Below are positions 5,427 to 57,783 of a stretch of DNA of 64,000 bases, in pieces. Position numbers and translations under genes: made by a program. The stretch lies in the IMG/VR virus record IMGVR_UViG_3300011115_000838, positions 1-64,000 of that record. One strand, given 5' to 3'. Each line of letters opens with the position of its first letter. Position 1 is the stretch's first letter. The notes beneath the pieces are model-generated. The model had not been told where the DNA came from. It saw nothing but the letters and a program-made list of their open reading frames with translations, and ran no database searches. The DNA is from a virus.

Positions 5427-5481
5427 GTTTTTATTTACTTATTGGTTTTAAATTAAATATTTTGATATGATATAAATACAA

Positions 5482-5736
5482 TTAAGAAATAACCTTTAAT
5501 ACTAATTGGTCTTTTTCAAAATAGTCAAATTCTAATTTTGGAACTTCACTAACAAATACTATATCAATTTCACCTTCTGTTGTATCAATAAATAAATGAT
5601 TTTTGACTTGTTTAAATGATTTATATGTATATCTGTTATTAAAATTAATAACTATAAAATTAGTTATATCATCCCATTTGTTTGAAAATTCATGTGTAAA
5701 TAAAAATTCTCCACCATTTTTTATCTTAGCTTTCAT
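5482..5736 (-). CDS. Hypothetical protein, 84 aa
   Basis: Beta-rich soluble protein rich in aromatic residues. A good host-type promoter (5756-5786) lies directly upstream, so this gene may open a transcript running to the left. Function unknown. Confidence 0.5.
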   Translation of the reverse strand: MKAKIKNGGEFLFTHEFSNKWDDITNFIVINFNNRYTYKSFKQVKNHLFIDTTEGEIDIVFVSEVPKLEFDYFEKDQLVLKVIS

Positions 5737-5747
5737 ACTTTATTTAT

Positions 5748-5963
5748 TTATGATACAAATTTACAAAAGAAAAAGACAAATGTCAAGCTACAGCCTAAAT
5801 TTTTCTTGATTTTTTTGTGTAAGTTATCTATAGTATTAGATAATATTGTAATATCACTATGCCATTCTTCAATAATCCTTTTTACTTCTATCTCTTCTAA
5901 TAGATATTGATTGTCATTGCATATTCTTGATGCTTTTTCTTTTATTTCTTGTAATTTAGTCAT
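5748..5963 (-). CDS. Hypothetical coiled-coil protein, 71 aa
   Basis: The first 55 residues form charged helices suited to a coiled coil. The last 15 residues (LTFVFFFCKFVS) are translated across the promoter of the next gene, so the tail may not be under selection. Low to moderate support as a gene. Confidence 0.4.
   Translation of the reverse strand: MTKLQEIKEKASRICNDNQYLLEEIEVKRIIEEWHSDITILSNTIDNLHKKIKKNLGCSLTFVFFFCKFVS
5756..5786 (-). promoter_or_regulatory. Bacteroidota-type promoter
   Basis: On the minus strand TTG is followed after 20 nt by TAAATTTG, matching the -33 TTG / -7 TAnnTTTG consensus of Bacteroidota. It sits about 20 nt upstream of the start codon at 5736. Confidence 0.6.
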
Positions 5964-6073
5964 AGTATTGACATTAAGATAATCGTAAAGTATTGATTAT
6001 CAGATAATTAACTTATTTTAACCTTTTGACCTATATAATCTACTTGATTATTGTTTTTATTTCCTAAACCTTA

Positions 6074-6111
6074 AACAATTAGATTATAATTTAACAATTA
6101 GACTATAAATT
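6074..6111. repeat. Tandem 19-bp AT-rich repeat
   Basis: Two adjacent near-identical 19-mers (aacaattagattataattt and aacaattagactataaatt) lie just past the 3' end of the winged-helix protein gene. The surrounding 5964-6125 is very AT-rich and gene-free. An iteron or binding-site role for the neighbouring DNA-binding protein is possible. Confidence 0.4.
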
Positions 6112-6125
6112 AGATTTTTCACAAT

Positions 6126-6863
6126 TTAGAACCTGCTTGTGTGCATTCTTAAATTAGAATTTCTTTCAGACACACAAGAAAAGAATAGTTTATCATTATG
6201 TTCGATGAACTTTCCTTTCTTTCTTTTGGAAAGGTATTTCATAAAGTCTAATTTCTTTTCATTACTTCCGTTGGCATTTATAAATATCTTTTCAGACTTA
6301 TAAACTGATACTTTTTGTAATGAGCGATAACGCTGTTCTGTTCTAATAGAAATGTTTGAAAGGCTGGCTGATAAACTAAGTGCTGCAAGCTCTTTAAATT
6401 CAAGTAGTTTTAAGTCTTGTACTTTTGTTTTATAACCGTGTTTGTCTCTTACTTTAAATCCTCTTATAATAGAGTTCTTCATTGTCTCGTAATTTTCTTT
6501 TACGATTTCACTAAGCAATGCTCTAAATTCGGCAATGTTCTTCCAAGAAAAACCGTTGATAGTCTCAGAAGAAATTAGAATGTACTTTAAGGATTTTTTG
6601 TTTGAGAGATTCTTTGCTGATTTAACTTCAATAGATAGTCCTTTTTCTAAGATATATCCATTTATAGATAAATATTTTATGTGCCTTTGAGCGGTAGAAT
6701 TTGATACTCCTAATATTTTTGGGATTTGGCTAACTTTGATTTGACCATAAGAGCCAAAAGTAGAAGTATATATTCTTAGCTTGAAGTAAGACAATATGTA
6801 TGTAGAGAACTGCTGTGTTATAGCATCCTTTGATAAATCTACATATAGTCTTGTATTTAACAT
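6126..6863 (-). CDS. Winged-helix replication/regulatory protein, 245 aa
   Basis: The N-terminal 80 residues read as a winged helix: KVSQIPKILGVSNSTAQRHIKYLSINGYI is a recognisable helix-turn-helix with recognition helix and wing. The basic C-terminal half (KYLSRKRKGKF) is not recognised. Length and layout resemble phage replication-initiator or RepA-like proteins, but a transcriptional regulator is equally possible. The ATG at 6863 is preferred to a GTG at 6896 that would lie inside the upstream hairpin. The start codon directly follows a terminator-like structure (6864-6937), pointing to attenuation control. Tandem AT-rich repeats lie past its 3' end. Confidence 0.6.
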   Translation of the reverse strand: MLNTRLYVDLSKDAITQQFSTYILSYFKLRIYTSTFGSYGQIKVSQIPKILGVSNSTAQRHIKYLSINGYILEKGLSIEVKSAKNLSNKKSLKYILISSETINGFSWKNIAEFRALLSEIVKENYETMKNSIIRGFKVRDKHGYKTKVQDLKLLEFKELAALSLSASLSNISIRTEQRYRSLQKVSVYKSEKIFINANGSNEKKLDFMKYLSKRKKGKFIEHNDKLFFSCVSERNSNLRMHTSRF

Positions 6864-6937
6864 AAAAAAAAAATACAGCAACGTTCCCGAAAACACCTAA
6901 ATTTTTGCGAAAACAAGGTGGGAAGATTGCTGTATTT
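6864..6937 (-). promoter_or_regulatory. Terminator-like leader hairpin abutting a start codon
   Basis: Two perfectly complementary 11-nt arms (6927-6937 and 6871-6881) enclose inner complementary segments (CACCT/AGGTG and TTCC/GGAA). On the minus strand the 3' arm runs directly into a U tract and then the ATG of the winged-helix gene. It has the form of an intrinsic terminator or attenuator and may also block ribosome loading. Confidence 0.6.
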
Positions 6938-7034
6938 CTTTTTAAGGCTTTAAACTTGTTTTCGCACATCTAAGATACGAAAAGACTTTTAATTATGCAA
7001 GCAAAAGTTGTAAAAATATTAAAAAAATATTTTG

Positions 7035-7105
7035 AGGTCTTAATCGGACTCGAACCGATGTAGGAGCTTTTGCAGAGCTATGCCTAACCACTTGGCTATA
7101 AGACC
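7035..7105 (-). tRNA. tRNA-Cys (anticodon GCA)
   Basis: The minus strand folds into a cloverleaf: 7-bp acceptor GGTCTTA/TAAGACC, D arm GCC/GGC with a GTGGTTA-type loop, anticodon loop CTGCAAA (anticodon GCA after U33) on a stem with one T-C mismatch at its base, and T arm ATCGG-TTCGAGT-CCGAT. The discriminator base is U, as expected for tRNA-Cys. CCA is not encoded. Many virion-region proteins here are cysteine-rich, so a phage tRNA-Cys may help their translation (inference). Confidence 0.85.
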
Positions 7106-7194
7106 TTTTAAAAAATACTCAGCAGAATCAAGATGTACTGCTGAGTATATAATAAATTTATCAACTTTAAACAAACAACTATGAAACTATTTGC

Positions 7195-7258
7195 GGAACA
7201 TGATGAGACTCGAACTCATAACCTGCTAAAAACTGCTCTACCATTGAGCTACATTTCC
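7195..7258 (-). pseudogene. tRNA-like element lacking a normal anticodon arm
   Basis: On the minus strand there is a near-complete acceptor (GGAAATG/CATGTTC, one mismatch and one G-U), a perfect D arm (GCTC-AATGGTA-GAGC) and a perfect T arm (ATGAG-TTCGAGT-CTCAT). Only about 15 nt lie between the D and T arms, too few for an anticodon arm plus variable loop. It is either a decayed tRNA or a tRNA mimic. It is 89 nt upstream of tRNA-Cys. Confidence 0.55.
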
Positions 7259-23214: not shown

Positions 23215-23484
23215 ATGGCTGACAAATCTAAGATGAAATGTAACGTAGTTGTTACATCAGACAGGAAAGGAAAGAAAAAGATGGTTAAGGTTTGTGAAGA
23301 TGGCAAAGAAAAACTAATACATTTCGGAGCAGACGGATACAAATCAAACTATTCAGACAAAGCTCGTGAAAGATTCAGAGCAAGACATGATTGTGATAAT
23401 GCAAAAGATAAAACGACTGCAAGATATTGGGCGTGTAAAGCCTTGTGGTCTCCTGATAGTCCTAAATATTTAAAAGGAAAATAA
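23215..23484 (+). CDS. Conserved terminase-adjacent phage protein, 89 aa
   Basis: A basic protein containing SDKARERFRARHDCDNAKDK followed by TTARYWACKALWSP, a motif I recognise from small proteins of many phages (including cyanophages and Bacteroidota phages), often beside terminase genes. Its function is not established. Its stop overlaps the TerL start by 1 nt. Confidence 0.6.
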   Translation: MADKSKMKCNVVVTSDRKGKKKMVKVCEDGKEKLIHFGADGYKSNYSDKARERFRARHDCDNAKDKTTARYWACKALWSPDSPKYLKGK

Positions 23485-24869
23485 TGTTTAACCCAAAAGA
23501 ATTAAATAGGGCATATTACGACATAGTAGAGTCTATAAAGACAAAACCATTTACGGTTTTATATGGCGGAAGAAATGCAGCGAAGTCTCACTCAGCCATG
23601 CAGTGGTTAGCAAAGACATTATGGAATGAAGCAGACTCAAATGCGGTTTGGTATCGAAAGGAACAATCTGTATTGAAGTCAAAAGCTTATGAACCAATGA
23701 AGAATATAATTGAGAAGAAAGGTTTATCAAGTTATATGAATTTCACATTCCATAACTTAGCCAAAGAAATTAAATTTCCAAAAGGGAATACTCTCAAATA
23801 TGACTTCTGTGATGATGGTGGCAAGTCTAAAGGATACTCAAATATACGATATGTAATTATTGATGAGATTGACCAGCTAACAATTAATGACTTTATGGGG
23901 ATTGTAACCTCATTTAGAGCAGATGATAGGATTAGATTCATTATAATGTTTAATCCAGTATCTGATAAGCATTGGCTTAAAAAGGTATTTTTTGAAGAGA
24001 ATGCAAAAGATATTGAGGTTTCATTTAGAGACTTATCTAATAGATTCCACTACACAATCGAGGATAATAAGTTTGCTACGGAGATGGACTACCTGATGCT
24101 TGAAGCATTGAAAGGAGTTGATATAAATCAGTATGGAGTACAAAGATTAGGTAAGTGGGGAACAGTAAATGTTGATAATCCATTCTTAGACCGTTTTGTA
24201 TTTAATATTCACGTAAAGAAAGATGTACCCTATTTCAGAGAATATCCAATTTATTTAGGACTTGACTTTGGAAAGTATGATAGTTGCGTAGTAGGACAAC
24301 ATTTTGAAGACTATGAGATTGGAAGCGATGAAGCACTATACTCTTATTTCTCACCAAATAAACCAGCTAATACACGATTAAAGGATTATCGAAGTAGAGA
24401 CCTTAGAGCCATAATTCAAGATGTTGTAAAAGAGTTTGGGAGCGATAATGACTATATAGTATATGGTGATACTTCTGGAGGCTCAGATGAGTTTTCTAAA
24501 TTTGCTGAAATAAGAAATTACCTAGAAGACTGTGGCGTAAATGGATACACGGGTGGAAGTATAAAGTTCCCTTACAGGATTAAATTAAGACATAAAGGTA
24601 ATAGAGCAATATCTAATTGGTGTTTCTATAGCTATGCCGATAACTATGTGATAGATGCAAAGTGTGAGATTCTCATCAATGACCTACAGCAAGTTAGAGT
24701 TGATGAGTTTGGAAACATTGACAAGAATGATTGTGTAAGACACAACATTGGCCATGTGATGGATGGGAGTAGATATTTAGATGTACTTACTGATGGTGGA
24801 AACTTCATAAAAAACAACGGATATTACGCAAAAGACATACTTGGAAAGGATACTTCACTAATTTCTTAA
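23484..24869 (+). CDS. terL: Terminase large subunit, 461 aa
   Basis: ATPase-nuclease that packages DNA into the prohead. Walker A GGRNAAKS at residues 28-35, Walker B VIIDEID at 124-130, RNase H-like nuclease acidic residues D261 (LGLDFGKYDS), D329 (VYGDTSGG) and D427 (HVMDGSRYLD). Length and order match the Terminase_3 family. It ends the virion operon. No recognised small subunit lies next to it; the unassigned plus-strand gene at 61615 is one candidate. Confidence 0.92.
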   Translation: MFNPKELNRAYYDIVESIKTKPFTVLYGGRNAAKSHSAMQWLAKTLWNEADSNAVWYRKEQSVLKSKAYEPMKNIIEKKGLSSYMNFTFHNLAKEIKFPKGNTLKYDFCDDGGKSKGYSNIRYVIIDEIDQLTINDFMGIVTSFRADDRIRFIIMFNPVSDKHWLKKVFFEENAKDIEVSFRDLSNRFHYTIEDNKFATEMDYLMLEALKGVDINQYGVQRLGKWGTVNVDNPFLDRFVFNIHVKKDVPYFREYPIYLGLDFGKYDSCVVGQHFEDYEIGSDEALYSYFSPNKPANTRLKDYRSRDLRAIIQDVVKEFGSDNDYIVYGDTSGGSDEFSKFAEIRNYLEDCGVNGYTGGSIKFPYRIKLRHKGNRAISNWCFYSYADNYVIDAKCEILINDLQQVRVDEFGNIDKNDCVRHNIGHVMDGSRYLDVLTDGGNFIKNNGYYAKDILGKDTSLIS

Positions 24870-24888: not shown

Positions 24889-24919
24889 TTGACATCTAAA
24901 GATACTTTGACTATATTTG
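24889..24919 (+). promoter_or_regulatory. Promoter of the HNH endonuclease gene
   Basis: TTG-N20-TATATTTG, a full Bacteroidota consensus, 24 nt before the HNH start codon. The 21 nt beginning with TATATTTG are identical to the leader of the BRO-nuclease gene on the other strand near 38853-38873. Confidence 0.75.
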
Positions 24920-24943
24920 TATTCACTTAAAAAGGTAGCAAAT

Positions 24944-25579
24944 ATGGAAGCGATTGAGTACAATGGATTTAAGTTTCACTGCACTGATAGATATTATAGG
25001 GGCAATGTTATTATTGATGGAAGAAAGACAAAGATTTTGCTTCATAGATATGTATATATGTGTGAAGTAGGAGAGATACCAGAAAAGCATCACATACATC
25101 ATAGAGATGGAAATAAGTTAAATAACGACATATCAAATTTAGAGTGTTTAACAATGACTGAACACTTTAGATTTCACGGTAGGACTAAAGAGTACAAAGA
25201 TAGGTTGAGGCTTGTACAGCCTTTAGGAATGGAAGCAGCGAAAGAATGGCACGCCTCAGAAGAAGGTTTAAAATGGCATTCAGAACACGCAAAGAAAGCA
25301 TTTGCAAATAAGCCTTTTAGGAAAATAACTTGTGGCTTTTGTAACAAAGAGTATGAAACTAATGCGATAGTATCTAAGTTCTGCTCTAACAATTGCAAGT
25401 CAGCCAATAGAAGAAAGATATCAAAAGAGACGGGTTTAGATATGGAAGACAGGAAGTGTAAGACCTGCGATAACGTATTTAACATCAATAAGTATTCAAC
25501 AAGAGCATTATGTAGAGACTGTTACAATTATGGTTGTAATACAAAATACAAAAAAGACTTGTCATTAGAAAACATTTAA
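24944..25579 (+). CDS. HNH endonuclease with C-terminal zinc ribbons, 211 aa
   Basis: Residues about 40-80 carry the HNH_3-type core: LHRYVYMCEVG, HHIHHRDGNKLNNDISNLE, then HFRFHG. The C-terminal half has cysteine pairs (CGFCNKEY ... CSNNC, CKTCDNVF ... CRDC) that would form zinc ribbons. It is probably a free-standing homing endonuclease, typical beside terminase genes in phages. Starts at the ATG at 24944 downstream of its own promoter. Confidence 0.85.
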   Translation: MEAIEYNGFKFHCTDRYYRGNVIIDGRKTKILLHRYVYMCEVGEIPEKHHIHHRDGNKLNNDISNLECLTMTEHFRFHGRTKEYKDRLRLVQPLGMEAAKEWHASEEGLKWHSEHAKKAFANKPFRKITCGFCNKEYETNAIVSKFCSNNCKSANRRKISKETGLDMEDRKCKTCDNVFNINKYSTRALCRDCYNYGCNTKYKKDLSLENI

Positions 25580-26054: not shown

Positions 26055-26089
26055 AAGCCTACCATCATTGAGATAGTAGGCTTTTTTAT
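26055..26089. terminator. Convergent intrinsic terminator
   Basis: Stem AAGCCTAC/GTAGGCTT with flanking A and T tracts on both sides, between the plus-strand virion block and the minus-strand antirepressor cassette. The symmetry allows termination in both directions. Confidence 0.7.
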
Positions 26090-26313
26090 TAATTATTGAA
26101 TAATTTAACCAAGAACTCTCTTCCAATTTGAGTCCATTTCCTGTGGTAAACTACTTTTCCACTATCAAGAACTTCCTGCTTAATATCTACATAAGCCAAA
26201 TCACTATATTTAGAGTATAGAACCCAAGTTTCATTTTGCTTGTATTGGATACCTAAATCATGTAGCGTTTTGTTTAATTCACTGGCTGATTTTATATCTC
26301 CATATATACCCAT
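26089..26313 (-). pseudogene. C-terminal half of a split antirepressor, 74 aa
   Basis: The sequence (KSASELNKTLHDLGIQYKQ, then WVLYSKYSDLAYVDIKQEVL, then GKVVYHRKWTQIGREFLVKLF) is the well-known C-terminal DNA/protein-binding part of AntA/KilAC-type phage antirepressors. It lacks the N-terminal domain, which is encoded 0.7 kb upstream on the same strand beyond the GIY-YIG gene. The frame could start at the ATG at 26313, which overlaps the end of the GIY-YIG gene in another frame, so the fragment may be translated as a separate subunit. Confidence 0.75.
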
Positions 26314-26986
26314 ACGATTTTTTTATTTCTCCTTTACAGCATTTTATTAAATTACTGTGATTGTAGCCAAAAGTTTTTTTTAAATCACTGAACTTATCCC
26401 ATTCTTTAATAAAATTCATATTAACATCATACTGAATAACTGGAGTTGTATTAATTGGGGTTAACCCAAGTCTTCTTTTATTACCAATTAAACTTTTTGA
26501 TATTTTATCTTTAAAATCTTGGCTTCTTTTAATTCCTTTGGTATAAGAATTTCCTGTATGTTGTTTGGATATTTCTTTGCTACGTTTTTTTTGAGAAATA
26601 CTCATTTTTTCTCTTACAATTAATGACTTTTTTACTCCTTTCATTGATTGTGATATTTTTATTTTTGTTTCTTCTGAGATTGTTTTATTGAAATTACCAC
26701 CTTGCTCTAAATTGAATCCAAATTCTCTGTTGTATGATTTAAAATGCTTTATATAAAACATTTCTTTTTCGTTTAATTCATCTTTTGTGCATTCTTCAAT
26801 AATTTCAAATAAAAAATTATCTATTCCATATTTATTAAAACTATGTTGCAAGTGCGTGTTCCAATGACAATTATTGGACAATTCTCTTAAATGTCTTTTA
26901 CCTCTTATTTCTATATTTAGAGACTGTCCAATGTATTTTTTTTGATTAATAACACATTCTATTTTGTATATTCCAATTTTTGACAT
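26279..26986 (-). CDS. GIY-YIG homing endonuclease inserted in the antirepressor gene
   Basis: GIY at residues 5-7 and YIG at 18-20 with the downstream R and E of the catalytic fold (GKRH, FEIIEE), then NUMOD3-type repeats (EETKIKISQSMKG, REKMSISQKKRS, DKISKSLIGNKR) and a C-terminal IENR1-like DNA-binding unit (VIQYDVN ... FGYNHSNLIKCCKG). This is the layout of intron-encoded or free-standing phage homing endonucleases. It has its own promoter (27008-27037) and its last ~35 nt overlap the antirepressor C-terminal frame. Non-coding flanks are too short for a group I intron. Confidence 0.9.
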   Translation of the reverse strand: MSKIGIYKIECVINQKKYIGQSLNIEIRGKRHLRELSNNCHWNTHLQHSFNKYGIDNFLFEIIEECTKDELNEKEMFYIKHFKSYNREFGFNLEQGGNFNKTISEETKIKISQSMKGVKKSLIVREKMSISQKKRSKEISKQHTGNSYTKGIKRSQDFKDKISKSLIGNKRRLGLTPINTTPVIQYDVNMNFIKEWDKFSDLKKTFGYNHSNLIKCCKGEIKKSYGYIWRYKISQ

Positions 26987-27007
26987 ACTTCATGTATTTA
27001 GTGTACG

Positions 27008-27037
27008 CAAATATACGAATTATATATTGATAAGCAA
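27008..27037 (-). promoter_or_regulatory. Promoter of the GIY-YIG gene
   Basis: TTG-N19-TATATTTG on the minus strand about 20 nt upstream of the start codon, lying at the insertion boundary within the antirepressor reading frame. Confidence 0.7.
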
Positions 27038-27043
27038 AACAAA

Positions 27044-27500
27044 CTTTACTAATTTCAGTAGATGTGTAGGTCTTATTCACATGAGTCAAAATAGCTACCG
27101 TTTTTTCTGCCAACAATTTTGCTTCTCTTTCAGCCAGTTTTTCTTCTTCTGATTTGACTAATGCTCTAAGTGATGAAAGATAATCTTTTGGCAAATTGTT
27201 AGCTAATTGTTTCTCACATTCAATAAAATACAATCTCGCATCCCTGCCTTTATCAGAACGCTGTACCATAGAGATTTCTTTTGCACAATCTAAAGTTAAA
27301 GCATATTCCTTACTTGGGCGACCTCCAATACTTTCCCCCAAAAATGAGGAAAAGTCTTTTCCTTCTTCAAATCCATAATCAAACATCCTTTTACACCAAT
27401 CGGTAAAATCTGTTTTAACTTCTAAGAACTGATGCAATTCTCTTGCACTCACTACTCTGTTGCCTTCTGCGTTAGTCGACACTTTAATTAATTCTTGCAT
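27044..27500 (-). pseudogene. N-terminal half of split AntA/AntB antirepressor
   Basis: From the ATG at 27500, residues 1-105 match AntA/AntB antirepressors (RVVSARELHQFLEVKTDFTDW, then FEEGKDFSSFL, then EYALTLDCAKEISMVQRSDKG), followed by a coiled linker and HVNKTYTSTEISK. Beyond about 27044 the frame departs into insertion sequence (ending at 26946) and the expected C-terminal domain is found at 26089-26298. Joining 27044 to 26298 restores TSTEISK-DIKSASELNK in one frame. Antirepressors inactivate phage repressors; whether the two halves still work as separate chains is unknown. Confidence 0.75.
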
Positions 27501-27621: not shown

Positions 27622-27651
27622 CAAATATAATAAAGTTTGAGTATAATCCAA
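27622..27651 (-). promoter_or_regulatory. Promoter of the antirepressor transcript
   Basis: TTG-N19-TATATTTG on the minus strand, upstream of the leader hairpin, giving an untranslated leader of about 115 nt. Confidence 0.7.
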
Positions 27652-27658
27652 AATATTA

Positions 27659-56450: not shown

Positions 56451-56837
56451 TTAAAATTTTGCACCTTCTAAATTTGCACCTTCTAAATCTGCACCATATA
56501 AATTTGCATTACGTAAATTTGCATAACGTAAACCTGCACCTTCTAAATTTGCATAACGTAAACTTGCACCAAATAAATTTGCATCACGCAAATCTGCACC
56601 TTCTAAATTTGCACCTTCTAAATCTGCATTAACTAAATTTGCACTTTCTAAATTTGCATCATATAAACTCGCACCACGTAAACTTGCACCAAATAAATCT
56701 GCACCAACTAAATTTGCACCATATAAATCTGCACATTCTTCAAGACCTTTTATTAAGGTTTTTAAAATAGTATTGTCTTCACATTCGTAGGAAAATAAAA
56801 TATTATTATTATATCTATTTCTTATTTCTATTTTCAT
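56451..56837 (-). CDS. Pentapeptide-repeat protein 1, 128 aa
   Basis: An N-terminal ~35-residue module ([20 protein letters not shown] ... LIKGLEE) is followed by tandem A(D/N)LxG pentapeptides (about 16 units), which fold into a right-handed quadrilateral beta-helix. Pentapeptide proteins can mimic DNA and protect or inhibit gyrase, but this one has no such proof. One of three adjacent paralogues with near-identical N-termini. Confidence 0.85.
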
Positions 56838-56848
56838 TTTCTTAATTG

Positions 56849-57205
56849 TTAAAATTTTGCACCTTCTAATTTTGCACCAACTAAATTTGCACCAAATAAA
56901 TTTGCATCACGTAAATCTGCACCATATAAATCTGCACCAAACAAATTTGCATCACGCAAATCTGCACCATATAAACTTGCAAAACGTAAATCTGCACCAC
57001 GTAAATTTGCAAAACGTAAATCTACACTAACTAATTTTGTATAACGTAAATCTGCACCTTCTAAATTTGCACCAACTAAATCCGCATCACTTAAATCTGC
57101 ACCTTCTTCGAGACCATTTATCAAGGTTAATAAAATAGTGTTTCCTTCACATTCATGTGAAAATAAAACATTATTATTATATCTATTTTTTATTTCTATT
57201 TTCAT
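56849..57205 (-). CDS. Pentapeptide-repeat protein 2, 118 aa
   Basis: Same N-terminal module ([20 protein letters not shown]) and about 14 ADLxx-type repeats. Spaced 11 nt from its neighbours, in the same orientation, with matching intergenic sequence, so the three genes arose by tandem duplication. Confidence 0.85.
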
Positions 57206-57216
57206 TTTATTAATTG

Positions 57217-57783
57217 TTAAAATTTTGCACCAACTAATTTTGCACCAACTAAATTTGCACCAACTAAATCTGCACCACGTAAATACGCATAACGTAAATC
57301 CGCACCTTCTAAATCTGCATCACGTAAATCCGCACCTTCTAAATCTGCATCAAATAAATTTGAACCACGTAAATCCGCACCTTCTAAATCTGCACCACGT
57401 AAACTTGCACCACGTAAACTTGCACCACGTAAATCTGCACCAAATAAATTTGCACCTTCTAAATCTGCATCACGTAAACCCGCACCTTCTAAATCTGCAC
57501 CAACTAAATTTGAACCACGTAAATCCGCACCTTCTAAATCTGCACCACGTAAACTTGCACCACGTAAATACGCATAACGTAAATCCGCACCTTCTAAATT
57601 TGCACCACGTAAACTTGCACCACGTAAATCTGCACCAAATAAATCCACACCAACTAAATATGCACCACGTAAACTTGCATCTTCTTTAATACCTTCTAAC
57701 AAGGTTTTTAAAATAGTATTGTGTTCACATTCATGGGAAAATAATACTATTTTATTATATCTATTTTTTATTTCAATTTTCAT
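57217..57783 (-). CDS. Pentapeptide-repeat protein 3, 188 aa
   Basis: The longest of the three, with about 29 pentapeptide units. Its DNA contains many near-exact internal repeats (for example aaatctgcaccacgtaaac), making copy-number change likely. Same N-terminal module ([20 protein letters not shown]). Soluble, beta-helical fold expected. Confidence 0.85.

Follow-up and report, generated by a model that had tools for sequence, protein, structure and literature searches.

A free-standing GIY-YIG endonuclease gene very probably inserted without an intron into the antirepressor gene of a putative Bacteroidota-type phage

Splitting of a coding gene by a homing endonuclease gene has already been described in a few other phages. 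In Aeromonas phage Aeh1, the endonuclease gene mobE, which encodes an HNH enzyme, is inserted without an intron into nrdA, which related phages carry unbroken, and the split falls within a functionally critical region (PMC2988022, a review of T4-like phages). In T4, topoisomerase gene 60 contains mobA, and seg43, a seg-type gene, sits at gene 43 of Aeromonas phage 25; in each case a free-standing endonuclease gene goes together with a split coding region, although gene 43 of phage 25 may have split before the endonuclease arrived (PMC2988022). In these systems, function as two chains has been shown for Aeh1 NrdA and is supported for the phage 25 polymerase (PMC2988022).

Here we describe a further, well-documented case of such a split in a 64,000-base window of DNA, part of an IMG/VR virus record of 68,724 bases, where codon content, a promoter motif and the relatives point to a Bacteroidota-type phage; its terminase has distant matches only, and another structural protein gave no match. 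On the minus strand the window carries, in order, the AntA half of an antirepressor gene, a 235-aa GIY-YIG open reading frame and the ANT/KilAC half (Table 1), with the AntA and ANT domains of an AntA-KilAC antirepressor both present on two separate chains. It is very probable that a free-standing GIY-YIG/NUMOD gene has inserted without an intron into this antirepressor gene, replacing 11 bp, a degree of confidence that covers the intron-less insertion and not its functional outcome. This is the same kind of event as in Aeh1, as the original prediction had proposed, in that an endonuclease gene interrupts, with no intron, a gene that relatives have in one piece, and breaks it in a critical region (PMC2988022). 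The window differs from Aeh1 in that its endonuclease is of the GIY-YIG type and the interrupted gene is a predicted regulator, as opposed to an enzyme shown to work in pieces; it differs from T4 mobA and phage 25 seg43, which concern enzyme genes of T4-like phages, in that a regulator is split, the phage belongs to another group and the empty site is present in a close relative. The open-access literature yielded no direct report of a GIY-YIG gene in an antirepressor.

Table 1. Parts of the interrupted antirepressor locus and the positions of related leaders (window positions unless a contig is named)
Feature	Position	Strand	Basis
Promoter-like site of antirepressor, TTTG-N19-TATATTTG, Bacteroidota type	27622..27652	-	Pattern search, motif only
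Leader, terminator-like hairpin and U run directly before start codon	27501..27621	-	
Corresponding leader in L003	3876..4000		
Corresponding leader in L174	4864..4985		
AntA (N-terminal) half, 152 native residues to ...TYTSTEISK	27045..27500	-	Pfam AntA, E 1.8e-26
Foreign tail of AntA half, 32 residues (VCFAYQYIIRIF...) from insert, and stop	26946..27044	-	ORF list
Insert, 751 bp in place of 11 bp (AACTTGGTTTT) of L003	26293..27043	-	Global DNA alignment
Promoter-like site within insert, TTTG-N19-TATATTTG, 5' of endonuclease gene	27008..27038	-	Pattern search
GIY-YIG/NUMOD homing endonuclease gene, 235 aa	26279..26986	-	Pfam, PHROG 314, I-TevI alignment
ANT/KilAC (C-terminal) half, 74-aa ORF MGIYGDIKSASELNK...	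26089..26313	-	Pfam ANT, E 1.1e-12
Terminator-like hairpin 3' of ANT half (AGCCTACTATC...GATGGTAGGCT), common to L003	26050..26088	-	Alignment

Both fragments of the antirepressor gene are open and have starts of their own, ATG 27500 for the AntA half and ATG 26313 for the ANT half. The AntA-half reading frame comes to 184 aa in total, with its stop at 26946, and its tail runs, in a different frame, over the first part of the endonuclease gene. At the other end, the final residues and stop codon (26281-26279) of the endonuclease lie within antirepressor DNA, and the ANT half has its start within the last part of that gene, in a different frame once more, its ATG being the sole in-frame one between the upstream stop and the conserved KSA. 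The ANT half matches positions 33-106 of Pfam ANT, and is also matched by PHROG 25289, a profile of 79 positions annotated as of unknown function.

The uninterrupted gene is found in L003, a fragment of a closely related phage recovered by scanning viral contigs with the AntA half, where it occupies the same place, with two small genes upstream and an HNH gene and terminase downstream that the window shares in the same order. In the DNA alignment both read ...GAAATTAGYAAAG up to the break, after which the window has the insert where L003 has AACTTGGTTTT, and both then continue with AAATCAGCC...; the 11 bp of L003 encode E-L-G-F, four codons that are missing in the window. At the level of sequence there is an intact gene in the same place in a relative, an exact insert, a loss of four codons and a break of frame, and the two genomes hold the occupied and the empty allele of one site. 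The claim that an endonuclease gene splits one antirepressor gene without an intron is borne out by this empty site, together with the lack of an intron match and of a restoring join described below. As to the boundaries, the split first described stands and its positions shift slightly: since the insert runs from 27043 to 26293 and replaces 11 bp, antirepressor DNA resumes at 26292 (AAATCAGCC, KSA), and not at 'DIK...', which is not the resumption point of the old gene.

Over the 239 bp past the break the window and L003 are 95% identical, and the insertion is thus recent when set against the divergence of the antirepressor tails in the two phages. The AntA half shows just 59% identity to that of L003, and as L003 is a relative and not the ancestor, the 11-bp loss could partly be a later change. 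No transposon-like target-site duplication or terminal inverted repeats were found at the junctions, only a chance 5-nt repeat. Alignment across the junction places all intact homologues in one frame, the close ones reading STEIAKEL(G/N)xKSA at the break. A scan of genome contigs yielded only three intact relatives. Whether the two halves are normally separate genes could be answered in the negative, in that AntA and ANT lie 157-238 nt apart and in frame at all other AntA-ANT loci collected, with no split spacing among them, and separate ANT halves are not a usual arrangement there; the distance of about 906 nt, out of frame, in the window is unique among these loci. This unique interrupted spacing, along with the 95% identity of the ANT half to L003 DNA over 239 bp, argues that the split is not a chance arrangement.

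The inserted gene matches Pfam GIY-YIG (E 2.9e-7), NUMOD1 slightly under the cut-off (E 7e-4, 20.2 bits versus 22.8), NUMOD3 at E 0.3 and the homing endonuclease family PHROG 314 at 3.2e-37. Its first 92 residues align, over 90 residues, with the catalytic domain of I-TevI (1mk0/1ln0, E 2e-12), a GIY-YIG endonuclease that resides in a group I intron of T4 td, while the window gene is apparently not in an intron. The 1mk0 and 1ln0 chains differ at one R/A and one E/A position, which we take to be the R27A and E75A catalytic mutants of I-TevI, and the window endonuclease has R and E at these positions, so that the catalytic domain is present with both residues conserved. Relatives of ~27-34% identity over the full length, also in PHROG 314, occur in Bacteroides/crAss-like and Flavobacterium phages, and none was found at this site. 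No further copy of the endonuclease at the antirepressor site was found in the viral contigs or five related records, and since no second copy was seen at the site or elsewhere in the relatives searched, homing is a step that we infer. In another virus contig, a GIY-YIG domain match lies downstream of an AntA gene (L159, 3789-4082, plus strand).

Both the antirepressor gene and the insert carry TTTG-N19-TATATTTG, a Bacteroidota promoter motif, and the TATATTTG box and most of the region of the antirepressor site are kept in L003. In the AT-rich window this motif occurs at 23 sites versus 6 expected, with 10 of the 23 within a repeat-rich stretch, so the copy in the insert is suggestive only. 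Three tandem genes for pentapeptide-repeat-like proteins lie at 56451-57783 (minus strand), and the motif matches opposite them are probably due to repeats.

An AlphaFold2 model of the intact L003 protein (mean pLDDT 88) has a predicted ANT-domain helix at residues 152-158 followed by another at 164-173, and gave no match at E <= 0.001 in a fold search against the PDB. The break comes after residue 157 and the lost residues, 158-161, lie between these two predicted helices, which would place the insert in the turn of a helix-turn-helix. According to the model, the AntA domain and a long helix (112-144) stay in the first chain, and the remaining ANT domain falls in the second.

Taken together, these observations point to a recent entry of the endonuclease gene, with its own Bacteroidota-type promoter motif, into the ANT helix-turn-helix. 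Where the antirepressor allele was uninterrupted, the endonuclease would have recognised this conserved stretch, spreading through cutting and repair, and replacement of the stretch would shield its own copy from cutting. The AntA half would still be produced, with its 32-residue foreign tail, and the ANT half could be made only from the endonuclease transcript, starting at ATG 26313. Any function of the single-chain antirepressor for which the ANT domain is required has most likely been lost, while the AntA half may still be partly active. The less likely alternative to loss of function is that, by analogy with Aeh1 NrdA, the AntA half (with ANT helix 1 and the foreign tail) assembles with the ANT half into a two-chain antirepressor, which we regard as rather unlikely. 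Each half forms an open reading frame; in the ANT half amino-acid changes are few and an in-frame ATG precedes the first conserved residue, and there are the precedents in other phages (PMC2988022). However, the break is predicted to remove the last part of helix 1 together with the turn that follows it in the helix-turn-helix, so that the ANT half would be without a core helix; the two halves would come from different promoters; and the insertion is so recent that absent decay tells little. That the two chains work together, with the C-terminal half produced solely upon firing of the endonuclease promoter, is more doubtful still.

It is unlikely that this is a case of simple decay, in which the gene was already dead and the endonuclease landed, or persists, in a pseudogene. 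The split gene could be dispensable, given the window's two further antirepressor-like genes (33199-32579 and 38842-38105), and no Phage_integrase match was obtained in the 68.7-kb record, as could fit a dead gene. The same two observations leave without support the earlier suggestion that the split changes the choice between lysis and lysogeny. A dead gene is at odds with the halves themselves, which are without stops or frameshifts except for the insert and whose differences from L003 are mostly silent relative to the number of sites; in the ANT half there are 5 synonymous and 4 non-synonymous differences (pS 0.13, pN 0.025, Fisher p 0.014). This lack of decay in the ANT half would fit a recent insertion or continued use alike, and much of the difference may predate the insertion.

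Many GIY-YIG endonucleases are intron-encoded, and intron-encoded reading frames can overlap the ribozyme core. The insert might accordingly be read as a group I intron, with a core that mostly overlaps the endonuclease reading frame and with splicing that gives an intact protein. A profile of 21 intact homologues served to score all 2209 in-frame joins of the two ends; the highest score was 146.6 bits, or 142.2 among joins with U in front and a terminal G (U..G), versus 155.1 for intact L003, and one U..G join gives a protein of the right length with KVCYIKSA for KELGFKSA. None of the joins restores E-L-G-F, however, and junction exon bases are lost or altered even though the adjacent sequence is 95% identical. 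No group I or group II intron was detected at E up to 10 in an Rfam search with permissive filters, folding of the insert is no better than that of shuffled sequence (z-score -1.0), and the endonuclease reading frame extends to the 3' boundary. With neither a ribozyme core nor an exact insertion that leaves the exon whole, and with 11 bp missing relative to L003, the group I reading was rejected as very improbable. A group II intron was rejected as there is no Rfam match. That the insert leaves no room for an intron had been argued before from its length; the conclusion holds on account of the lost target bases, the lack of an intron match and the lack of a restoring join, while the space argument is weak alone since intron reading frames can overlap the core. 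The intron reading of the insert is thus unlikely, and intron-less insertion of a free-standing gene is preferred.

Independent of the insertion is the leader between the antirepressor promoter-like site and the start codon, where a terminator-like hairpin is followed by a U run. In the window, the loop of this hairpin, TGTCTGAA, has its complement in TTCAGACA, a segment transcribed early. The corresponding pairs are TTGAAAC/GTTTCAA in L174 and TTCGAAC/GTTCGAA in L003, so that neighbouring positions vary on both sides with pairing retained. The same plan with other sequences is present in L002, L022, L024 and L062, where a TAnnTTTG box lies 119-135 nt upstream of the AntA gene; across loci the loop and the 5' part of the transcript are complementary over 7-8 nt, and both stem and loop pairing are kept as the sequence changes. 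Against shuffles this complementarity has a combined p = 6e-7 over seven loci, or 3e-6 without the window's two relatives, values that are optimistic since the elements were delimited by eye and the plan had been noticed in these very loci. A scan of all loci for the plan gave 18 distinct hits versus 8-11 in three non-complementary controls, and no Rfam family matched the leader at its cut-off. The leader might act as a pseudoknot attenuator, or as a small RNA, in the control of Bacteroidota phage antirepressor genes. Behind related leaders, L002 (4001-5444), L022 and L024 (both from 4001) encode AntA proteins with a different C-terminal domain (...YHIDTFRVCYPQYNYN), and in L002 an HNH-like reading frame overlaps the 3' end of the AntA gene.

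Other homing elements occur close to the antirepressor gene. In the window and in L003 alike, the terminase gene is immediately followed by an HNH endonuclease gene (24917-25579, plus strand, in the window), and the L003 terminase (5428-7203, minus strand) contains an in-frame mini-intein of ~130 aa with weak Intein_splicing and Hint matches, which the window terminase (23484-24869, plus strand) is without. The HNH gene, the intein and the GIY-YIG insert make up a stretch of ~4 kb rich in homing elements. Further along the window, there are the two additional antirepressor-like genes, both on the minus strand, one for a KilA-N-like regulator and the other for an anti-repressor Ant-like protein that has an additional region at its C-terminus.

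There are few cases in which a free-standing homing endonuclease splits a coding gene and the empty site is also available, and those reviewed are enzyme genes of T4-like phages. In the window it is a regulator of a putative Bacteroidota-type phage that is interrupted, with the break predicted to fall in a helix-turn-helix, which raises the question of whether a DNA-binding fold can withstand division into two chains. If the C-terminal half were indeed tied to the endonuclease promoter, a selfish gene would control the timing of a phage regulator.
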